This document shows, one piece after another, positions 33,166 through 42,222 of a DNA stretch of 64,000 nucleotides. Within the stretch, counting starts at the first letter, position 1; each line of letters starts with the position of its first letter. The notes beneath the pieces are model-generated. The model saw only the letters and a list, made by a program, of their open reading frames with translations, did not search any database and was not told where the DNA came from. Both the position numbers and the translations under genes were made by a program. The DNA comes from Halodesulfovibrio sp. (GTDB taxonomy: Bacteria > Desulfobacterota > Desulfovibrionia > Desulfovibrionales > Desulfovibrionaceae), in the NCBI RefSeq assembly GCF_015482765.1, contig NZ_JADMLB010000067.1:1-64000 (forward strand), given 5' to 3'.

Positions 33166-34011
33166 GTGACGTTACGTGAATGCTACAAATTATTGAATGT
33201 ACCTAACGGGGCATCGGAAGATGCCGTAAAGCAAGCATACCGTAAGCGTGCGTTTGAATTGCATCCTGATTTGCATCCTGATGATCCTGATGCTTCCAAG
33301 AAGTTTCAAAAGCTGAATGAAGCGTATGTTATTATTACTTCTTCTGCCAAAGACGGGGGGCCGAAGCGTTCTTCACAGTCTACCGGTAAAGCTCGTTCTG
33401 CTGCGAGCGGATATCGTTCCGAGCGTGCTTCTCGTGATGGCAATGTGCGTGATAGAGCGCGGGCTGCATATCGAAAAGCAAAAACTAATTTTGATGCGCA
33501 ACGGAATAAAGCTTCGCAGAGTGGTGATACATATAATAAGGAGCGTCCTGAATTTGATGATTCCTTCTGGAGCAAAGAGCAGCGCAGCTATTCAAAAGAA
33601 TCTGTTCTTAATGAAATTTTAAATGATCCATTTGCAAAGCGTGTTTTTGAAGACATTTATCGGGAAATACGCAGGGATGGTGGCACATCAATAAAGCTGC
33701 CTAAGAAACGTAAGTTTTCTATGCAGTGGGGTGAGCGTGATTTTTCAGTCGACATGACTGGTGGAATGAAAGGATGGTTGCAAAGGCAGCTTGATGACAA
33801 TCAGGTAATGCACCTGCCTATGCATAACCTGCGCCCCGGAGCAAAAGTTCGTCTTACTCTTTCTCAGGGGCTTGCCGGTGGAACCCGACAGTTGGAAATA
33901 ACGTTGCCGCAAGATTTTCGTGTCGGGCATCCGATACGTTTACGAAAGCTTGGTCGCAAGATCGGGGGCTGGGTCGGTGATTTGTACCTGACAATTCACG
34001 GACGTATGTAG
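33166..34011 (+). CDS. J-domain protein (DnaJ-like co-chaperone)
   Basis: A 281-residue protein. Residues 1-65 form a J domain with the HPD motif at 33-35 (ELHPDLHPDD), which stimulates DnaK. A basic, Ser-rich linker follows and then a C-terminal region (LRPGAKVRLTLSQGLAGGTRQLEITLP) that resembles part of the DnaJ/CbpA substrate domain. There is no zinc finger. The start is taken as GTG at 33166, with GGAGG 5 bases upstream. Upstream in-frame codons would add a 57-residue hydrophobic leader of low plausibility. Single-gene unit. Confidence 0.8.
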   Translation: MTLRECYKLLNVPNGASEDAVKQAYRKRAFELHPDLHPDDPDASKKFQKLNEAYVIITSSAKDGGPKRSSQSTGKARSAASGYRSERASRDGNVRDRARAAYRKAKTNFDAQRNKASQSGDTYNKERPEFDDSFWSKEQRSYSKESVLNEILNDPFAKRVFEDIYREIRRDGGTSIKLPKKRKFSMQWGERDFSVDMTGGMKGWLQRQLDDNQVMHLPMHNLRPGAKVRLTLSQGLAGGTRQLEITLPQDFRVGHPIRLRKLGRKIGGWVGDLYLTIHGRM

Positions 34012-34020
34012 TTTGAATAA

Positions 34021-34056
34021 AAAAATCCTGCCGAAGTACTTCGGCAGGATTTTTTG
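34021..34056. terminator. Bidirectional terminator, J-domain/YdjM-type genes
   Basis: A 34-base perfect palindrome (half AAAAATCCTGCCGAAGT) with A- and T-runs outward, between convergent genes. Confidence 0.93.
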
Positions 34057-34059
34057 TTT

Positions 34060-34509
34060 TTAAAACTCTCTATCGAGCAGCAGGTGTGAAAAATATCCTA
34101 CAACAGCTGCAAGGTAGTAAGGCAGTGTGACAACCCATGTCTCGCGGAAGAATATCCACGGCAGCGCAATAAGCGGTGCAGGTACGAGCAGCATTGCCCA
34201 CCATGTATGTGTCCAGCCTCTGTGTTTTCCCAATGCTGGGAGCATCGCAAACAGACCGAGTATTGCAGCCCATTGATAGTATTTGTTCACAATGAGCAGC
34301 ACATCCGTAATTGCCATGATCGAGTAAAAAAAGTTCTGCCCCTTGGATTCTGTGTCTGTATCGGGGAAGAGGGATGCCATGACTGCTATGGCAAACAGCA
34401 CTGATAGAAGCCAGACATCCTGAGGAAGGTAGGAAAAGTAAACTGCAGCAGCAATGGTGCTGCCGCCTAATACTGCGCCACCTGTAAGGTGAGCTTTATA
34501 TCCGGGCAT
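34060..34509 (-). CDS. YdjM/DUF457 family membrane-bound metal-dependent hydrolase-like protein
   Basis: A 149-residue membrane protein. It has an N-terminal HLTGGAVLGG, an acidic FPDTDTES motif, HRGWTHTWWAMLL and a C-terminal FSHLLLDREF. This His/Asp layout is typical of the YdjM (DUF457) family, predicted membrane-bound metal hydrolases; no substrate is established. About four hydrophobic spans are visible. AAGGA lies 7 bases before the ATG. The protein is slightly short at the C-terminus compared with many members. Confidence 0.75.
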   Translation of the reverse strand: MPGYKAHLTGGAVLGGSTIAAAVYFSYLPQDVWLLSVLFAIAVMASLFPDTDTESKGQNFFYSIMAITDVLLIVNKYYQWAAILGLFAMLPALGKHRGWTHTWWAMLLVPAPLIALPWIFFRETWVVTLPYYLAAVVGYFSHLLLDREF

Positions 34510-34681
34510 AGTAATTCCTTATGGTGAAGAAAATTTAGTCAGTAATGTACATAAATTATGTGTACCGGTAAAGACAAGAGGGTGGGCGGTAGTGGGGTGA
34601 TGTACAACTGTTAGTAGGCATCTAGCTGTTATAGAAGTGTTTTTTTCTGTCTCATATCATAGCGAAGATAAAACTTATGGG

Positions 34682-34837
34682 CATAATACAACCAGTGTAG
34701 AGCAGGACGGGCACGCTGCCTGTTTGCACATAAAGTGCCGGGGGGACGCCCTCGGCCAATGGAAACACTCCGAGCCTTCGGGCAGGTTTGCGGGGAAAAA
34801 GAGTGGAATTTATTCCACTTTTTTTCCCCGTTTTTTT
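34682..34837 (+). ncRNA. Candidate small structured RNA with intrinsic terminator
   Basis: A GC-rich stretch in an AT-rich gap, with several mutually consistent hairpins: GCAC/GTGC (34726-34738), a stable GCCG...CGGC stem (34737-34756), CCGA/UCGG (34770-34781) and a long-range CUGCC/GGCAG pairing (34716-34720 with 34781-34785). It ends in an 18-base stem plus seven T (34791-34837). CATAAT at 34682-34687 is a possible -10 element. I do not recognise 6S, SRP, tmRNA, RNase P or a known riboswitch. The class and true 5' end are unknown. Confidence 0.4.
34791..34837 (+). terminator. Strong intrinsic terminator with no upstream gene
   Basis: CGGGGAAAAAGAGTGGAA pairs with TTCCACTTTTTTTCCCCG (one mismatch), followed by TTTTTTT. 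The nearest upstream gene is on the opposite strand, so a plus-strand non-coding transcript is implied. Confidence 0.8.
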
Positions 34838-34869
34838 GCGCTTGAAGAGATGGATATTCGTTTCCTAAT

Positions 34870-34920
34870 ATTTGAGCGATCAATCAAATATTTTTTTACA
34901 AAATGATTGAACGCTCAAAT
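34870..34920. promoter_or_regulatory. Large inverted repeat upstream of Hdr-Flox
   Basis: Seventeen-base arms (34870-34886 and 34904-34920) match with one mismatch around a 17-base AT spacer. Each arm contains TTGA-4-TCAA, itself a small dyad (TTGAGCGATCAA and TTGAACGCTCAA). This looks like two copies of an operator in inverted orientation. Confidence 0.55.
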
Positions 34921-34970
34921 CAGCACAAAATTTCAATGATTTCGTATTATCCAGTAAAATATTGTAGTTA

Positions 34971-34990
34971 TTGTGATGGTAAAATCACAA
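34971..34990. promoter_or_regulatory. TTGTGAT-6-ATCACAA dyad
   Basis: Perfect 7-bp arms with a 6-base spacer. It resembles sites of the CRP/FNR family and of Rex, though the spacing differs from the usual TGTGA-N6-TCACA and from Rex sites by two bases. Confidence 0.5.
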
Positions 34991-35008
34991 AACAGCGTTT
35001 TTTTTGAA

Positions 35009-35037
35009 TTTTTTTGCAGAAAATAAATGCAAAAAAA
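35009..35037. repeat. T-tract/A-tract inverted repeat
   Basis: TTTTTTTGCA and TGCAAAAAAA are perfect 10-bp arms with a 9-base spacer. The A/T tracts may bend DNA; a terminator role is unlikely because an A-run, not a T-run, follows on the plus strand. Confidence 0.4.
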
Positions 35038-35115
35038 AACACTATACGGGTTGCCAATGTTTGTTAGCGGCGTTAGTCTATGGATATAAATAGAGTGATA
35101 CACTTCATCCCTATT

Positions 35116-35136
35116 ATTGTGATTGGTACCCACAAT
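35116..35136. promoter_or_regulatory. ATTGTG-9-CACAAT dyad
   Basis: Perfect 6-bp arms with a 9-base spacer, using the same TTGTG half-site as the dyad at 34971. It lies 300 bases before hdrC. Confidence 0.4.
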
Positions 35137-35435
35137 GTTTACGGGGATTAAGTTGGAAGAGTTGATGTGTGAGACAGCACTTGTTTGCCTACCTGAGAAA
35201 GTACGGTTTTTGTTGTTTATGGGTTAAAGCAACAAAAAGATCCGCACTCTTTTCGAGTATATTCCGTAAAAAGCTGACGATATGGTCAGCCCTGTCTCGC
35301 CTTTGTTGCATATCAGTTGGGGTCTGAAGTGCTTCCGAGTTCTTCGTTTTCCTGTATCACGCTGTGCTGAACTGGTGTTTAGGCATGTTTTGTATGCCAA
35401 TTTGCTGCCTTTTTCAGTCAACATTCGGAGGAGCC

Positions 35436-36005
35436 ATGGAAACCATCCCTCTTAACTCACCGGATAGAGAATTCATCCGTGAAGTTCAGGAGAGAAGTGG
35501 ACAGAATGTGTTAGCTTGCTACCAGTGTGGCAACTGCACCGCTGGCTGTCCTTATAACTTTGCGTACGACCTCTCTGTAAGTCGCGTGATGCGTCTTGTG
35601 CAGCTTGGTCAGCGTGAAGCTGTTCTTAAAAGCCATTCAATATGGCTGTGTGCAACCTGTCAGTCCTGTACAACTCGCTGTCCTAACAGCATTGATGTCG
35701 CCAAAATTATGGATGTTCTGCGTCACATGGCACGTGAAGCAGGCTACGCTACTGAGCGTAATGTTAAAGCATTCGGCGATGCTTTCCTTGAATCGGTCGA
35801 AAAGCACGGTCGTGTGTATGAACTTGGCGTAACAGCTACATACATTCGCAAAACTGGTAGATTCTGGACAGATGTTGATCTCGCTCCAGCAATGCTTCCT
35901 AAAAATAAGCTTTCGATTAAACCGCATGAAATTCGCGGTAAAGAACACGTATCTGAAATTTTCAAACGTTTCAGAGAGCGTGATGCCGTCAAGGAGAACA
36001 GCTAA
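35436..36005 (+). CDS. hdrC: Heterodisulfide reductase-like subunit C
   Basis: A 189-residue iron-sulfur protein with two [4Fe-4S] motifs, CYQCGNCTAGCP (Cys28/31/34/38) and CATCQSCTTRCP (Cys72/75/78/82). It passes electrons between HdrA and HdrB. It is the first gene of the seven-gene hdrCBA-flox set. The start METIPLNSPDREF at 35436 has GGAGG 5 bases upstream; the hydrophobic leader of the longer frame is not real. Its stop overlaps the hdrB start (TAATG). In sulfate reducers this soluble HdrABC acts with Flox on a substrate proposed to be the DsrC disulfide. Confidence 0.93.
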   Translation: METIPLNSPDREFIREVQERSGQNVLACYQCGNCTAGCPYNFAYDLSVSRVMRLVQLGQREAVLKSHSIWLCATCQSCTTRCPNSIDVAKIMDVLRHMAREAGYATERNVKAFGDAFLESVEKHGRVYELGVTATYIRKTGRFWTDVDLAPAMLPKNKLSIKPHEIRGKEHVSEIFKRFRERDAVKENS

Positions 36006-36880
36006 TGTCAATTTCTGTAGGATACTACCCGGGCTGCTCCGGTAGTGGCACGTCTGTAGAATACGACAAGTCCACCCGTGCAGTCTGTAAAAAGCTCGGT
36101 ATCGAGCTTCACGAAATCGACGATTGGAGCTGTTGTGGCTCCACTCCGGCTCATACAGTAAACCACACTCTTTCTGCAGCACTTTCTGCTCGCAACCTCG
36201 TTCTTGCTGCTAAGCAGGGACAGGAAGAAGTTGTAACTCCTTGTCCGAGCTGTCTTGCCAACCTTCGCACTGCTTCTCATAAAATTGAAGACGAAGAATA
36301 TCGTCCGAAAGTTGAAGCTCTGCTTGATGAATCCTGTGAAGAAGCGGCTTCTGTTGCTTCTACCTTGCAGCTCATCATCGAACGCGTAGGCATTGATGCT
36401 ATCAAGAAAGCTGTTGTTAAGCCTCTTAAAGATCTTAACGTAGCTTGTTACTACGGCTGCATTATGAACCGCCCGCCGGAACTGATGAAGTTTGATGATC
36501 CTGAAAATCCAATGGCGATGGACAAGATCATGGAAGCTTGCGGTGCGACTGTACTGCCTTTCCCGCTTAAAGTTGAGTGCTGCGGTGCCGCAGCCGGTAT
36601 GCCCAAGAAAAATATCGTAACTGAACTTTCAGGTCGTCTGCTTGAAGTGGCTGATTCCCTGAATACAGAGATTATCGTTACTGCGTGTCCTTTGTGTCAG
36701 ATGAACCTCGACCTTCGTCAGGGTCAGGTGAATCGTGCAAACGGCAAAAGCTACGATATTCCGGTTGTGTACTTTACACAGCTGCTCGGTTTGGCTCTTG
36801 GTCTTTCTGCTGAAGAGGTTGGCTTGTCCAAGCTCGTAGTAGACCCGACACCTCGTCTGCGTTTTGCTGACGTTTTATAG
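36005..36880 (+). CDS. hdrB: Heterodisulfide reductase-like subunit B
   Basis: Predicted disulfide-reducing subunit, 291 residues, with two Cys-rich CCG domains: WSCCGSTPAH with CPSC, and VECCGAAAGM with CPLC, preceded by PGCSGSG and YYGCIMNRP. In methanogen HdrB these bind two non-cubane [4Fe-4S] clusters where the disulfide is cleaved. All cysteines appear to be retained. It overlaps hdrC by one base and is followed by hdrA after 12 bases. The physiological disulfide cannot be read from the sequence. Confidence 0.93.
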   Translation: MSISVGYYPGCSGSGTSVEYDKSTRAVCKKLGIELHEIDDWSCCGSTPAHTVNHTLSAALSARNLVLAAKQGQEEVVTPCPSCLANLRTASHKIEDEEYRPKVEALLDESCEEAASVASTLQLIIERVGIDAIKKAVVKPLKDLNVACYYGCIMNRPPELMKFDDPENPMAMDKIMEACGATVLPFPLKVECCGAAAGMPKKNIVTELSGRLLEVADSLNTEIIVTACPLCQMNLDLRQGQVNRANGKSYDIPVVYFTQLLGLALGLSAEEVGLSKLVVDPTPRLRFADVL

Positions 36881-36892
36881 CAAGGAGAGAGT

Positions 36893-38866
36893 ATGCGTAT
36901 AGGCGTATTTATCTGTCACTGTGGCAGTAACATCGCGGCTACTGTTGACTGTCCGGCTGTAGCGGAGCAAGCAAAGGGTTTGCAGGACGTAGTGTTTACT
37001 ACAGACACTATGTACACCTGTTCCGAGCCGGGACAGAATGAAATTATTGAAGCCATTAAAGAGCACAAGCTTGACGGCGTAGTGGTAGCTTCCTGTTCAC
37101 CACGTATGCACGAAGCAACGTTCCGTCGTGCTCTTGAGCGTGCCGGTCTTAACCGTTACATGCTCGAAATGGCGAACATTCGTGAACACGTTTCCTGGAT
37201 CGGTAAGAACAAGGAACGTAACACGGTTAAAGCTTTTGAGCTGGTATCTATTGCTGTTGCCAAACTGCGTAACAACAATCCACTTTACGCAAACAAGTTC
37301 GACGTAACAAAACGCGTTCTTGTTATCGGTGGTGGTGTTGCCGGTATTCAGGCTGCACTTGATTGTGCTGATGCCGGATATCAGGTTGTGATGGTTGAGC
37401 GTGAGCAATCCATCGGCGGCAAAATGGCAAAAATCGATAAAACCTTCCCGACTGTCGACTGTTCCTCATGTATTTTGGGACCGAAGATGGTAGACGTATC
37501 ACAGCATGAAAACATCACGCTGTATGCTTTGTCTGAAGTGGAAAAAATCGAAGGCTACGTTGGTAACTTTGATGTGCAGGTGCGCAAAAAAGCTACATAC
37601 GTAAACTGGGATGAGTGCACCGGTTGTGGCGCATGTATGGAAAAATGCCCAAGTAAAAAGAACATTGATAAGTTCAACGAAGGCATTTCCAAGTGTACCT
37701 CAATTAACATTCCTTTCCCGCAGGCTATTCCTAAGAAAGCCGCTATCAATCCTGAAGGCTGTCTGATGCTTCAGAAAGGCAAATGCGGCGTTTGTGCCAA
37801 AGTTTGTCCTACTAAGTGCATCGACTTTGAGCAGAAGGATGAAATTATTACCGAAAAAGTCGGCGCTGTTATCGCCGCTACCGGTTACGACATGTTCGAC
37901 CACTCTGTGTACAAACAGTATGGCGCAGGTCAGTACCCGGACGTTATTACCTCCCTGCAGTATGAGCGTCTTATGAACGCATCCGGCCCTACCGGTGGTC
38001 ACATTATTCGTCCATCCGATGGTAAAGAGCCGAAAAAAGTTGTGTTTGTACAGTGCGTAGGCTCTCGTGATCCTTCCGTAGGCCGCCCTTACTGCTCCGG
38101 TTTCTGCTGCATGTACACTGCAAAGCAGGCTATCCTTACTAAGGATCACATCCCTGATTCTGATTCCTACGTTTTCTACATGGACATTCGTTCCCCTGGT
38201 AAAGGATACGATGAGTTCACCCGTAGAGCACAGGAACAGTACGGCGTTCAGTACCTCCGCGGTCGCGTATCCATGATCTACCCTAAAGGCGATCGTTACG
38301 TTGTTCGTGGTTCTGATACTCTTGCCGGTACTCAGGTTGAAGTGGAAGCTGACCTTGTTGTTCTGGCTGTTGGTGCGGAAAGTGCGAAAAATGCACCTGC
38401 ACTCGCTGAAAAAATGCGTATCTCTTACGATAACTACGGCTTCTTTATGGAAGCTCACCCTAAACTGAAGCCTGTTGAAACAAACACTGCCGGTGTTTAC
38501 CTTGCAGGTTCCTGTGTAGGCCCAAGAGATATTCCAACTTCTGTTGGTCAGGGTAGTGCAGCCGCAGCTAAAGTTATGACTCTGTTCTCCAAAGACAAGC
38601 TTGAAAGCGACCCGCAGGTTTCCAGCGTGAATACTTCCCGCTGCATAGGCTGTATGAAGTGTGCTACCACTTGTCCGTTCGGTGCAATCAAAGAAGTAAC
38701 CGACCGTGCAGGCAATGTGAAAGCTGAAGTTATTGAAACAGTATGTCAGGGTTGCGGTATTTGTACCGTTACCTGTCCTCAGGGTGCTATCCAGCTGCAG
38801 CACTTTACAGACAACCAGATTCTCGCGGAGGTTAACGCCTTATGTCAGGCTCAACTGGACTTTTAA
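36893..38866 (+). CDS. hdrA: Heterodisulfide reductase-like subunit A (FAD, bifurcating)
   Basis: A 657-residue flavoprotein and the proposed bifurcation site. It has an N-terminal HdrA domain (VFICHCGSNI, SCSPRMHE), an FAD-binding motif VLVIGGGVAGIQAA (142-155), the HdrA-specific Cys group DCSSCILGPKM, and ferredoxin motifs near 242-252 and CGVCAKVCPTKC. Two more [4Fe-4S] motifs lie at the C-terminus (RCIGCMKCATTCP, VCQGCGICTVTCP). Length is as in methanogen HdrA, with Cys and no visible selenocysteine. AAGGAGAG precedes the ATG. The end overlaps the next gene by 25 bases. Confidence 0.94.
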   Translation: MRIGVFICHCGSNIAATVDCPAVAEQAKGLQDVVFTTDTMYTCSEPGQNEIIEAIKEHKLDGVVVASCSPRMHEATFRRALERAGLNRYMLEMANIREHVSWIGKNKERNTVKAFELVSIAVAKLRNNNPLYANKFDVTKRVLVIGGGVAGIQAALDCADAGYQVVMVEREQSIGGKMAKIDKTFPTVDCSSCILGPKMVDVSQHENITLYALSEVEKIEGYVGNFDVQVRKKATYVNWDECTGCGACMEKCPSKKNIDKFNEGISKCTSINIPFPQAIPKKAAINPEGCLMLQKGKCGVCAKVCPTKCIDFEQKDEIITEKVGAVIAATGYDMFDHSVYKQYGAGQYPDVITSLQYERLMNASGPTGGHIIRPSDGKEPKKVVFVQCVGSRDPSVGRPYCSGFCCMYTAKQAILTKDHIPDSDSYVFYMDIRSPGKGYDEFTRRAQEQYGVQYLRGRVSMIYPKGDRYVVRGSDTLAGTQVEVEADLVVLAVGAESAKNAPALAEKMRISYDNYGFFMEAHPKLKPVETNTAGVYLAGSCVGPRDIPTSVGQGSAAAAKVMTLFSKDKLESDPQVSSVNTSRCIGCMKCATTCPFGAIKEVTDRAGNVKAEVIETVCQGCGICTVTCPQGAIQLQHFTDNQILAEVNALCQAQLDF

Positions 38867-39366
38867 CAGAAGGCCAAGATCTTCGTATCGTTGGTTTCCT
38901 GTGTAACTGGTGCTCCTACGGTGGTGCAGATACCGCAGGTGTTGCTCGCTTTGAACAGCCTACAGATTTACGCGTAATCCGCGTACCTTGTTCCGGTCGT
39001 ATTGACCCGCTGTTTATTGCACGTGCACTCCTTAGCGGTGCTGATGGCGTACTCGTATCCGGTTGTCACCCACGTGACTGCCACTACGCTGAAGGTAACT
39101 TCTACGCCCGCCGTCGCTTTGAAATGCTCAAGCAGTTCCTGTCCGTTACCGGTATTGATCCGGAACGCTTTCATTACACATGGGTTTCTGCATCTGAAGG
39201 CCAGCGCTGGCAGGATGTTGTTACCTCCTTTACAGAACGTATTCGCAAACTGGGACCGGCTACAAAAATGGCTGGCGGCACCGGTTATGATGAAGAGTGT
39301 CTGAAAGAAATCGCGGCTGCTGTTTCCCTTGGTGACCAGTGCCCGTGCCATAAGGAGAAAGCGTAA
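38842..39366 (+). CDS. floxD: MvhD-like electron-transfer subunit (FloxD)
   Basis: A 174-residue protein of the MvhD family, which in methanogens carries a [2Fe-2S] cluster between hydrogenase and HdrA. Conserved features are CNWCSYGGADTAG, RVPCSGRIDP, SGCHPRDCHY and a C-terminal CPCH. Here it would connect Flox to HdrA. The start lies inside the hdrA end (25-base overlap), with GGAGG 10 bases upstream. Flox naming follows the published Desulfovibrio set; letter assignment is by domain type. Confidence 0.88.
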   Translation: MSGSTGLLTEGQDLRIVGFLCNWCSYGGADTAGVARFEQPTDLRVIRVPCSGRIDPLFIARALLSGADGVLVSGCHPRDCHYAEGNFYARRRFEMLKQFLSVTGIDPERFHYTWVSASEGQRWQDVVTSFTERIRKLGPATKMAGGTGYDEECLKEIAAAVSLGDQCPCHKEKA

Positions 39367-40322
39367 TGCAGGCTCTTGCAGAACTTAAAGAACAAATCCG
39401 TCAGGCATTACCTGATCTGGATGTAGTTATCGGTTGGCAGCAGGGTTATGATGCATTGCACACCAGCCCTCTCTTTATCCGCTCTGAAGAAGATATTGAT
39501 AAGCTCGTTGTTAACGAATTCTGCGTTGTGAACCCGGCTACTTACCTGCGTGAAATGCGCGGCGGTAAGAAAGTTGGTCTCGTGCTGAAAGGGTGTGACT
39601 CCCGTTCCGTTATCCAGCTTCTTCAGGAGAAACTTCTTAAAGAAGAAGATCTCACTATCTTCGGCTTCGGTTGTAACGGTGTTTTGAACCACACAAAACT
39701 TCAGGCTCGTTTCGGCGACATCGGCTTCATTACGTCTCTTGAAAACGACGGTACAAACGTAACCGTTGAAGCCGGCGACAAAAAAGAAACTGTGCCGTTT
39801 ACTGAATTGTGTGCTGATAAGTGCTTAACATGCTCTTACCCTAACACCTTGCAGTGTTCTCACTTTGCTGGTGAGGAATCCGCTAAACAGGCTGATTCTG
39901 CAACAGATAAAGCTCTTGAAGATTTCGAGAAGCTTACCATGGAAGAACGCTTTACATTCTGGCAGGACCAGATGCGTCGTTGTATCCGTTGTTACGCATG
40001 CCGTAACGCGTGTCCGATGTGTGTATGTAAAGATCACTGCCTTGCAAACTCTCGTGAGCCTAAATGGCTGAGCGAAGATGTTGATGTGCAGAATAACTTC
40101 ATGTTCCAGCTTATTCACGTAATGCACCTTACCGGTCGTTGTGTTGAGTGCGGTGAATGTGAACGTGCTTGTCCAATGGATATTCCGATTATGCTGTTAA
40201 GACGCAAAATGGCTGGCATTGTACGCGATGTATTTGCATACAATGCAGGAACCAACGCGGAAGAGACTCCTCCGCTTATGTGTTTTAAAGTGGAAGAACC
40301 AACTATCGAGGAGCGGCACTAG
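39366..40322 (+). CDS. floxC: Iron-sulfur oxidoreductase subunit (FloxC-like, FrhB-like N-terminus)
   Basis: A 318-residue protein. The N-terminal part (GLVLKGCDSRSVIQLLQEK, FGFGCNGVL, CLTCSYPNTLQCSH) resembles FrhB/FdhB-type flavin and iron-sulfur subunits. The C-terminal part has two [4Fe-4S] motifs, CIRCYACRNACPMCVC and CVECGECERACP. It is expected to relay electrons from FloxA/B to FloxD. It overlaps floxD by one base (TAATG) and is followed by the next subunit after 2 bases. Confidence 0.85.
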   Translation: MQALAELKEQIRQALPDLDVVIGWQQGYDALHTSPLFIRSEEDIDKLVVNEFCVVNPATYLREMRGGKKVGLVLKGCDSRSVIQLLQEKLLKEEDLTIFGFGCNGVLNHTKLQARFGDIGFITSLENDGTNVTVEAGDKKETVPFTELCADKCLTCSYPNTLQCSHFAGEESAKQADSATDKALEDFEKLTMEERFTFWQDQMRRCIRCYACRNACPMCVCKDHCLANSREPKWLSEDVDVQNNFMFQLIHVMHLTGRCVECGECERACPMDIPIMLLRRKMAGIVRDVFAYNAGTNAEETPPLMCFKVEEPTIEERH

Positions 40323-40324
40323 TC

Positions 40325-41383
40325 ATGGCTTGCAAATTTATCTCACACGAAGACACAAACCAGTGGCTTGAGGCTCTTGCTAAAGACCACGTAGTGTTTA
40401 TTCCGGTGGATGATGGCGGAAGTGTGACCTTCCGTCCGTATGGAGAAGGCCGTAAGCCGGTTCTTGACCGTATGCCAGTGCGTTCACCTAAAGAAGCAGT
40501 GTTCCCTCAGAACGAAACTCTGCTTACTTACAAGTATGATAAAGATCCGGAAGACCCGGAACGTACCTCTGTTCGCATTAAAGAAACTCTGCCGAAAGAA
40601 CGTGCAGTAGTTTTCGGTGCGCGTCCTTGTGGTACCCGTGGTATGACCGTTTTTGATAGCGTGTTTGTAAACGATCGTATTCGCGATCCTTACTACGCAA
40701 CACGTCGTGAAAACACATTGTACGTTACTCTCGCTTGTCACGAAGTAGAGTCTACCTGTTTCTGTCATGAAGTTGGTAGCGGTCCTGCTGATACAGCTGG
40801 TTCTGACGTACTGTTGACTCCTGTTCAGGGCGGCTACACTGCTGAAGCTGTTACCGAGCGCGGCGAAAAGATGCTTGAAGCAAGCTTCTTCGCTGACGGC
40901 GGTGACAAATGTGCTGAAGCTGAAGCTGTGAAGAAGGCAACCCGTGAAATGCTTGGCGAAGCACATGACTTCTCCAACGCTCCGGAAGCACTTCTTGCTG
41001 TGTTTGATGATGACGAGTTCTGGGATGATCAGGCTGCAGCTTGCTTGAGCTGTGGTGCATGTACGTACCTTTGCCCAACCTGTTACTGCTTCAACATTAC
41101 TGATGAATCAACAGGCACAACCGGCAAGCGTCTGCGTTCATGGGATACCTGCATGAGCTTCCAGTACACCTTGGAAGGTAGCGGTCACAACCCGCGTACA
41201 ACAAAAGGTAAACGTCTTAAAAACCGTGTGAACCACAAGTTCGCATACTTCCCTGATACATACGATCAGCATCTTGCTTGCTGTGGTTGTGGTCGTTGCA
41301 TCAAGAGTTGTCCTGCTTCTATTGATATCCGTTCAATTGTTAAAGCAGCACAGGCTCGCAGCGCTCAGAAGGAGTCTAAATAA
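40325..41383 (+). CDS. floxB: Iron-sulfur subunit (FloxB-like, HydB/AsrA type)
   Basis: A 352-residue protein similar to the beta subunit of sulfhydrogenases and to AsrA. The N-terminal part contains VVFGARPCGTRGMTVFDSVF and TLACHEVESTCFC. Two [4Fe-4S] motifs follow, CLSCGACTYLCPTCYC and CCGCGRCIKSCP, ending in a helix. It should link the FAD/NAD subunit to the other Flox clusters. It overlaps floxA by one base (TAATG), so the whole module is translationally coupled. Confidence 0.86.
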   Translation: MACKFISHEDTNQWLEALAKDHVVFIPVDDGGSVTFRPYGEGRKPVLDRMPVRSPKEAVFPQNETLLTYKYDKDPEDPERTSVRIKETLPKERAVVFGARPCGTRGMTVFDSVFVNDRIRDPYYATRRENTLYVTLACHEVESTCFCHEVGSGPADTAGSDVLLTPVQGGYTAEAVTERGEKMLEASFFADGGDKCAEAEAVKKATREMLGEAHDFSNAPEALLAVFDDDEFWDDQAAACLSCGACTYLCPTCYCFNITDESTGTTGKRLRSWDTCMSFQYTLEGSGHNPRTTKGKRLKNRVNHKFAYFPDTYDQHLACCGCGRCIKSCPASIDIRSIVKAAQARSAQKESK

Positions 41384-42222
41384 TGAAAGCTAATCCAGTT
41401 CTGCCGGATATGGCTACCATCATGGAAGTTGTTGAAGAGACCTCCAACATTAAAACCTTCCGTGTGCGTTTTGATGATGAGAATGTGATGAAAAACTTCA
41501 CCTTTGAACCGGGTCAGGTGGGTCAGCTGTCTGTTTTCGGTATCGGTGAATCAACATTCGTAATCAACTCTTCTCCAACCCGTATGGATTACCTCCAGTT
41601 CTCCGTTATGCGAGTAGGTGAAGTTACTTCCCGTATCCACCAGCTTAAAGCTGGCGATTCTGTCGGCGTGCGTGCACCGCTTGGTAACGCATTCCCGACT
41701 GAAGAGATGAAAGGACAGGATGTAACTTTCATCGGTGGTGGTATCGGTATGGCTCCGCTTCGTACACTTCTTGTGTACTTGTTGGATAACCGCGATGACT
41801 ACGGCAAAATTACTCTGCTTTACGGTGCTCGTACTCCTCAGGATTTGAGCTATCAGGAAGATATTGCAGAGTGGCTTGGGCGTGACGACATTGATGTAGT
41901 ATTGACCGTTGATAATCCGGACGAAGAATGGGGCAAAAATCCTCATGAAAAGACCGGTCTTATCCCGAACGTACTCAAGGAGATCAATCCGGACAACAGC
42001 GGCTACGCTGTGACCTGTGGACCTCCAATCATGATTAAGTTCACTCTCATGGCTCTTAATGAGCTTGGCTTTAAAGATGACAAAATCATCACTACTCTCG
42101 AAAAACGTATGAAGTGCGGTGTTGGCCTTTGCGGTCGTTGTAACATCGGTGACAAATACGTTTGTGTAGATGGTCCTGTGTTCAAGTATTCTGAACTTCA
42201 GGAACTGCCTAACGAACTGTAG
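41383..42222 (+). CDS. floxA: FAD/NAD(P)-binding oxidoreductase subunit (FloxA-like, HydG type)
   Basis: A 279-residue ferredoxin-NAD(P) reductase-type protein similar to the gamma subunit of sulfhydrogenases and to PyrK. The FAD domain covers about 1-105. The NAD domain begins VTFIGGGIGMAPLRTLLVYL and includes AVTCGPPIMIKF. A C-terminal Cys group (Cys245/250/253/261, MKCGVGLCGRC...YVC) binds a [2Fe-2S] cluster. It is the NAD(H) entry or exit of the Flox-Hdr complex. It is last in the operon; a strong terminator follows 20 bases later. Confidence 0.9.
   Translation: MKANPVLPDMATIMEVVEETSNIKTFRVRFDDENVMKNFTFEPGQVGQLSVFGIGESTFVINSSPTRMDYLQFSVMRVGEVTSRIHQLKAGDSVGVRAPLGNAFPTEEMKGQDVTFIGGGIGMAPLRTLLVYLLDNRDDYGKITLLYGARTPQDLSYQEDIAEWLGRDDIDVVLTVDNPDEEWGKNPHEKTGLIPNVLKEINPDNSGYAVTCGPPIMIKFTLMALNELGFKDDKIITTLEKRMKCGVGLCGRCNIGDKYVCVDGPVFKYSELQELPNEL

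Follow-up and report, generated by a model that had tools for sequence, protein, structure and literature searches.

A candidate small non-coding RNA conserved upstream of a putative Hdr-Flox gene run in Halodesulfovibrio

The intergenic region upstream of hdrC in Halodesulfovibrio sp. contains a GC-rich element of approximately 140 nt (34695-34837) that folds into four hairpins, the last of which is an intrinsic terminator. The window analyzed comprises 64,000 nucleotides (contig NZ_JADMLB010000067.1), and all positions refer to this window. We propose, with a probability of approximately 0.6, that the element is a stand-alone small RNA (sRNA) gene with its own promoter and intrinsic terminator, the seeds of which pair with mRNAs in trans without Hfq. 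The conservation, structure, terminator, and subclade distribution of the element are supported by sequence comparisons. The initial annotation of this DNA had pointed to a candidate sRNA, and the proposal was strengthened by conservation limited to the element, base pairs changed on both sides, a -10-like box, the terminator, the absence of a conserved open reading frame, and the absence of an Rfam match. The candidate sRNA would represent a new family within a familiar class of RNAs. Its parts and the neighboring genes are listed in Table 1.

Table 1. Features of the candidate sRNA locus
Feature	Position	Strand	Remarks
ydjM-like gene	34060-34509	-	PF04307
Promoter-like block GGGCATAATACA	34679-34690	+	Invariant in 6/6 genomes
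-10-like CATAAT	34682-34687	+	Invariant; followed by 7 bases and then the conserved core
Proposed sRNA, ~140 nt	34695-34837	+	5' end placed by the -10-like box and by where conservation begins; 3' end by the terminator
Hairpin I	34702-34727	+	11 pairs, loop CGC; sequence nearly invariant
Linker 1, ACAUAAAG(U/C)	34728-34736	+	First 8 letters invariant; 34730-34734 predicted unpaired; seed candidate
Hairpin II	34737-34756	+	8 pairs, loop GACG
Linker 2, CAAUGGAAACAC	34757-34768	+	Predicted largely unpaired; identical in 5/6
Hairpin III	34769-34782	+	UCCGA/UUCGG; competing GCC-UUCG-GGC form
Intrinsic terminator	34791-34837	+	18-pair stem, loop UUUA, U tract
Hdr-Flox gene run	35436-42222	+	Domain content of the products as expected for Hdr-Flox

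The element lies in a gap of 926 bases (34510-35435) between the divergent ydjM-like gene and a gene run that we take to be an Hdr-Flox operon, a name adopted from the initial annotation and from recall. An AT-rich gap of this size with a GC-rich island had been described, and the GC profile bears this out: the GC fraction is 0.63 at 34700-34799, 0.34-0.42 in 100-base intervals of 34500-34699, and 0.26-0.32 in those of 34800-35099. As had also been claimed, no plus-strand gene lies directly upstream: ydjM occupies the minus strand, and the dnaJ-like gene stops at 34011 and has a terminator-like site of its own. Between these convergent genes, an inverted repeat (AAAAAATCCTGCCGAAG ... CTTCGGCAGGATTTTTT) with A and T at its ends is present at 34020-34055, and it looks like an ordinary bidirectional terminator. 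ydjM and hdrC flank the element in all six genomes that carry it, and the distance from its core to the hdrC start region is 712-732 bases.

Conservation follows the element closely. In 25-base steps across 34681-34830, the fractions of positions identical in the six genomes were 0.68, 1.00, 0.80, 0.84, 0.52, and 0.56. The invariant fraction of the flanks was 0.16-0.48 (34531-34680) and 0.12-0.44 (34831-34955), and that of coding DNA was 0.68-0.96 in the first 300 bases from 35431 (hdrC) and 0.52-0.84 in ydjM. The core is approximately as invariant as the adjacent coding DNA, and the flanks drift.

The initial annotation had suggested that conservation in close relatives be examined, and the element was found in six of the ten genomes of the genus Halodesulfovibrio, matching over 118-119 bases with identities of 97, 92, 91, 88, and 88% in the five relatives. 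When 59 genomes, including that of the window, were searched, strong matches (E 8.9e-49 or better) were obtained in these six genomes of a single genus. The remaining genomes yielded mostly short matches with E 0.014-1, and 52 of the 59 had a match of some kind at E<=1. A covariance model of the core run against 348 genomes of the order returned the same six and no others at E<=0.01, under the stricter filters of large model searches, by which weak matches can be lost. A family-wide model search (288 genomes) gave 11 further genomes at E 0.012-0.75, with 18-26 bits versus 102-117 bits for the six carriers; we took these matches as chance, and in the five of the 11 alignments that were read, agreement was mostly centred on one hairpin. 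In a genome collection that may omit the records nearest to the window, an exact 21-base stretch of the core occurred in a single named genome, that of Halodesulfovibrio spirochaetisodalis.

The four genus members in which the element was not found were compared at this locus. In G005 and G006, ydjM and hdrC are separated by 9.4 and 10.0 kb, respectively, with other open reading frames in between. By eye, those of G005 (L075, 2144-11574) and G006 (L076, 1860-11887) resemble transporters, a TPP enzyme, an aldehyde dehydrogenase, AraC, and a glyoxalase, and they do not lie between ydjM and hdrC in the carriers. A blastn search of the gap against these two intervals produced matches of 12-23 bases only (E 0.9 or worse), and E 0.057 was the best value in an unfiltered model search that covered both of these syntenic intervals and three further stretches from outgroups. 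The G002 contig stops approximately 0.8 kb upstream of hdrC, and in G003 the hdrC relative is only 59% identical and ydjM has no match. Since the element was found in only six genomes and the ydjM-hdrC intervals of G005 and G006 gave no convincing match, it appears to be confined to one Halodesulfovibrio subclade of closely related marine sulfate reducers.

The predicted minimum free energy of 34682-34837 was -73.5 kcal/mol (z -7.5). Most of this excess stability is attributable to the terminator because the 95-nt core alone had a z of -1.95 in this genome, and the cores of the five homologues gave values of -2.1 to -3.3. The four hairpins, with the terminator stem counted at 34791-34830, comprise 43 counted pairs, and 97.3% of 256 cells in the six-genome comparison held a standard pair. 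Covariation on homologous gaps had been named as a check on the candidate, and five pairs were changed on both sides, one in hairpin II and four in the terminator. None of 500 shuffles equalled the observed pairing, the doubly changed pairs or cells, or the covariation score. The six sequences come from close relatives, and the shuffle counts are not to be read as probabilities. When the partner was slid by 1-3 columns, pairing fell to 38-61% with 0-2 doubly changed pairs. The number of further pair types did not exceed that of the shuffles (159 of 500).

This evidence is distributed unevenly among the hairpins. The stable stem at 34737-34756 noted from the single sequence was recovered as hairpin II, in which one pair is changed on both sides in the homologues and another varies among G-U, A-U, and G-C. 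Two of the four doubly changed terminator pairs are at the loop end, where, in some genomes, the loop left by the last counted pair would be too small. Hairpin I was paired in 100% of cells in the six genomes; however, it is without covariation support because its single change is one-sided (G-U to A-U). A competing 5' fold of 14 pairs (34695-34729) was the lowest-energy structure in five of the six cores, and four of these pairs are lost in G007, as is one in G001. Hairpin I was preferred over this fold since its pairing holds in every one of the six genomes. Another possible closing pair joins GUGU at 34695-34698 to ACAC at 34765-34768; it was whole in five of the six genomes, and two of its four pairs were lost in G007.

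The alternative pairings originally pointed out did not survive the comparison. GUGCC and its potential partners GGCAC and GCAC are located where they had been reported; however, the pairing is not conserved, as GUGCC becomes GCGCC and an A-C mismatch arises in three of the six genomes. Similarly, the letters of a long-range CUGCC/GGCAG closing pair are in place, but the pair is complete in only two of the six genomes. Both were rejected as conserved features since they break in the homologues. An ambiguity between alternative folds, different from that first described, exists at the 5' end in five of the six genomes.

The terminator described earlier was confirmed in this genome. The 18-base stem is present (34791-34808 with 34813-34830; 19 pairs when a G-U pair is included), as is the run of seven T at 34831-34837. 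However, this run is not conserved: only this genome has seven T following the full stem, and the relatives have 4-5 T. In contrast, seven or more consecutive T within the stem (34819-34825) are kept in all six genomes. Therefore, the 3' end of the RNA may lie near 34825 or near 34837. A terminator scan reported a plus-strand site at 34790-34831, among five sites in a 1.6-kb region versus 1.5 (sd 1.4) expected.

The element matched no family in Rfam 15: across the 64-kb window and the five homologous loci, no model scored at or above its gathering threshold. This agrees with the earlier observation that the sequence could not be matched to 6S, SRP, tmRNA, RNase P, or a riboswitch. At E<=10, 31 matches were obtained on 34500-35200, mostly to microRNA, snoRNA, and unrelated sRNA models, and all scored less than half of the gathering score. 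The best of these (E 0.003) placed MIR8008, a microRNA model, on the stem of the terminator, and we took it as chance. The 6S model (RF00013) was absent among the 31 matches and had no match in the genome at E<=1, while six of 14 control genomes matched. Hfq (PF17209) likewise had no match in the genome at E<=1, while six of 14 controls matched. Hfq or 6S may be present in this genome (G000) in too divergent a form.

Trans-encoded intergenic sRNAs are typically stand-alone loci of 50-250 nt with stem-loops, exposed conserved linkers, an intrinsic terminator, and a narrow phylogenetic range. The element shares its stand-alone locus, size, stem-loops, exposed conserved linkers, intrinsic terminator, and narrow range with this class. 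It differs in that no Hfq is recognizable in the genome and no family matches. We propose that transcription would start at a promoter just upstream, yield an RNA of approximately 140 nt, and stop at the element's own intrinsic terminator. The RNA would fold into the short hairpins and the terminator, leaving the linkers ACAUAAAG and CAAUGGAAACAC largely single-stranded. Conserved unpaired linkers are the usual place for seeds. Since both linkers are conserved and predicted to be largely unpaired, we infer from this anatomy that pairing would occur in trans; one or both linkers may be seeds for mRNAs from other loci, with ribosome binding sites as the likeliest points of contact, and seed pairing may lower or raise the translation of the targets in an Hfq-independent manner. 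Transcription, the pairing mechanism, and the targets are thus presented here as predictions. Several observations count against the sRNA reading. The lack of covariation support for hairpin I, the competing 5' fold, and the number of further pair types, all described above, are among them. No Hfq was recognized in the genome, and the commonest pairing chaperone would be missing. No -35 hexamer was recognized by eye at the usual distance from CATAAT, and the CATAAT block was absent from the list returned by a sigma-70 scan. Furthermore, the seed-complement searches described below gave no carrier-specific enrichment over controls.

The position of the element on the same strand upstream of hdrC in all six genomes, with a terminator at its end, would also be expected of a riboswitch or attenuator, that is, a cis-acting leader of the Hdr-Flox operon in which the terminator controls read-through into hdrC. 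Terminator-type riboswitches are similarly structured GC-rich RNAs that precede an operon and have an intrinsic terminator at their 3' side. However, approximately 600 bases separate the terminator from hdrC, and this stretch has its own conserved blocks (35050-35080, 35116-35130, and 35381-35430), of which the first and the last may represent the operon's promoter and leader. Moreover, no checked competing fold is kept in all homologues: the pairings first suggested fail in three or four of the six genomes, and a GAGUG/CACUC antiterminator pairing, examined by eye among the pairings checked, is kept in three of six. No Rfam riboswitch reached its gathering score. We consider a leader unlikely. 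The 5' part of the element is almost invariant, more so than pairing requires, and this extreme conservation could instead reflect a protein ligand. A protein-binding RNA, either a CsrA sponge or a 6S-like decoy of RNA polymerase, is in our view similarly improbable. In its favour, three GGA triplets were noted by eye in the core, and the genome gave no 6S match at E<=1. However, several conserved motifs are expected of a CsrA-sequestering RNA, and by eye there is a single ANGGA motif, which is lost in G007. 6S RNA has the shape of one long rod with a central bubble; the element is also a small structured RNA of similar size, but its helices form four separate hairpins without such a rod, and it did not match the 6S model.

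The terminator stem is also readable, more weakly, on the minus strand, which is compatible with conserved DNA only, consisting of regulatory sites and a stray bidirectional terminator without an RNA gene. The doubly changed pairs in hairpin II and in the terminator stem argue against this reading, as do the extent of the conserved block and the poor conservation of its flanks, and we regard it as quite unlikely. A small peptide, encoded by a dual-function RNA or an mRNA, is the least probable reading and hardly credible. In each of the six genomes, a CTG frame at 34720, an ATG at 34759 within it, and a TTG frame at 34724 remain open over 12 to 60 codons (28-48 codons for the CTG-initiated frame). 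However, across the six genomes, no open reading frame with a start codon in the element had its sequence, length, and ribosome binding site all kept. None of the frames has a plausible ribosome binding site, and indels, including a 1-base insertion in G007, alter their length and C-terminal sequence. In hairpin II of G001, both arms are changed such that pairing is kept and the would-be residues are altered; the changes are non-synonymous and yet preserve pairing. On these comparisons, the element is most probably non-coding, and a stand-alone sRNA gene remains our preferred reading.

Complements of the linkers were searched for as candidate target sites of the sRNA. The pattern GGAG-N(2-10)-CTTTATGT occurred at 21 sites in the six carriers versus 23 for the reversed pattern, and at 11 versus 10 in the four non-carriers. 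With one mismatch, AGTGTTTCCATTG occurred 84 times in the carriers versus 33 for the reversed pattern (the sRNA gene itself being counted in five), and 22 versus 9 times in the non-carriers. Since this excess is approximately equal in carriers and non-carriers, it is not carrier-specific.

One site was considered individually. CUUUAUGU spans the start of a bamA-like gene in five of the six carriers and in none of the four genus members that gave no match to the sRNA. The sixth carrier, G008, has CTATATGT at this start, and the four non-carriers have CTGTATGA (two genomes), CTGTATGT, and ATCTATGA. The gene has an open frame of approximately 917 codons, with POTRA domains in the part examined. 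The pairing predicted between the linker and this site is 8-9 bp, at -7.2 to -8.1 kcal/mol, versus -3.5 kcal/mol in G008. The difference at the site amounts to one to a few bases between two clades. Furthermore, an upstream frame is open through the start stretch by eye, and this overlapping frame may conserve the site regardless of the sRNA. The seed complement at the bamA start codon is a lead no stronger than chance. We consider it very unlikely that a lineage-specific, Hfq-independent sRNA blocks the start codon of bamA, an outer-membrane assembly factor, through the linker ACAUAAAG. If this were true, the sRNA and its bamA target site may have arisen together.

Transcript maps exist for Desulfovibrio vulgaris. 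Among the titles and abstract openings listed for sRNAs, Hfq, RNA motifs, and transcriptomes in Desulfovibrio and Halodesulfovibrio, no report describes the element. The non-coding RNAs of Oleidesulfovibrio alaskensis G20 have been surveyed computationally, in an article whose main text does not include Halodesulfovibrio (PMC11124144). Little sRNA work on Desulfovibrionaceae was found in literature listings, and a conserved RNA of narrow range may be a convenient entry point to sRNA function in this family. Elements of this kind are expected in many genera upon careful comparative annotation.

The gap contains other repeats downstream of the candidate sRNA. Directly 3' of the terminator, at 34871-34920, is an inverted repeat (TTTGAGCGATCAATCAAAT ... 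ATGATTGAACGCTCAAAT), which is present with changes in the four other carriers compared and is a possible operator. Two TTGTG-N-CACAA palindromes, at 34971-34990 (TTGTGATGGTAAAATCACAA) and 35117-35135 (TTGTGATTGGTACCCACAA), were the only matches to this pattern on the window's plus strand. They resemble operators of the CRP/FNR or Rex type, and the latter falls inside a partly invariant block.
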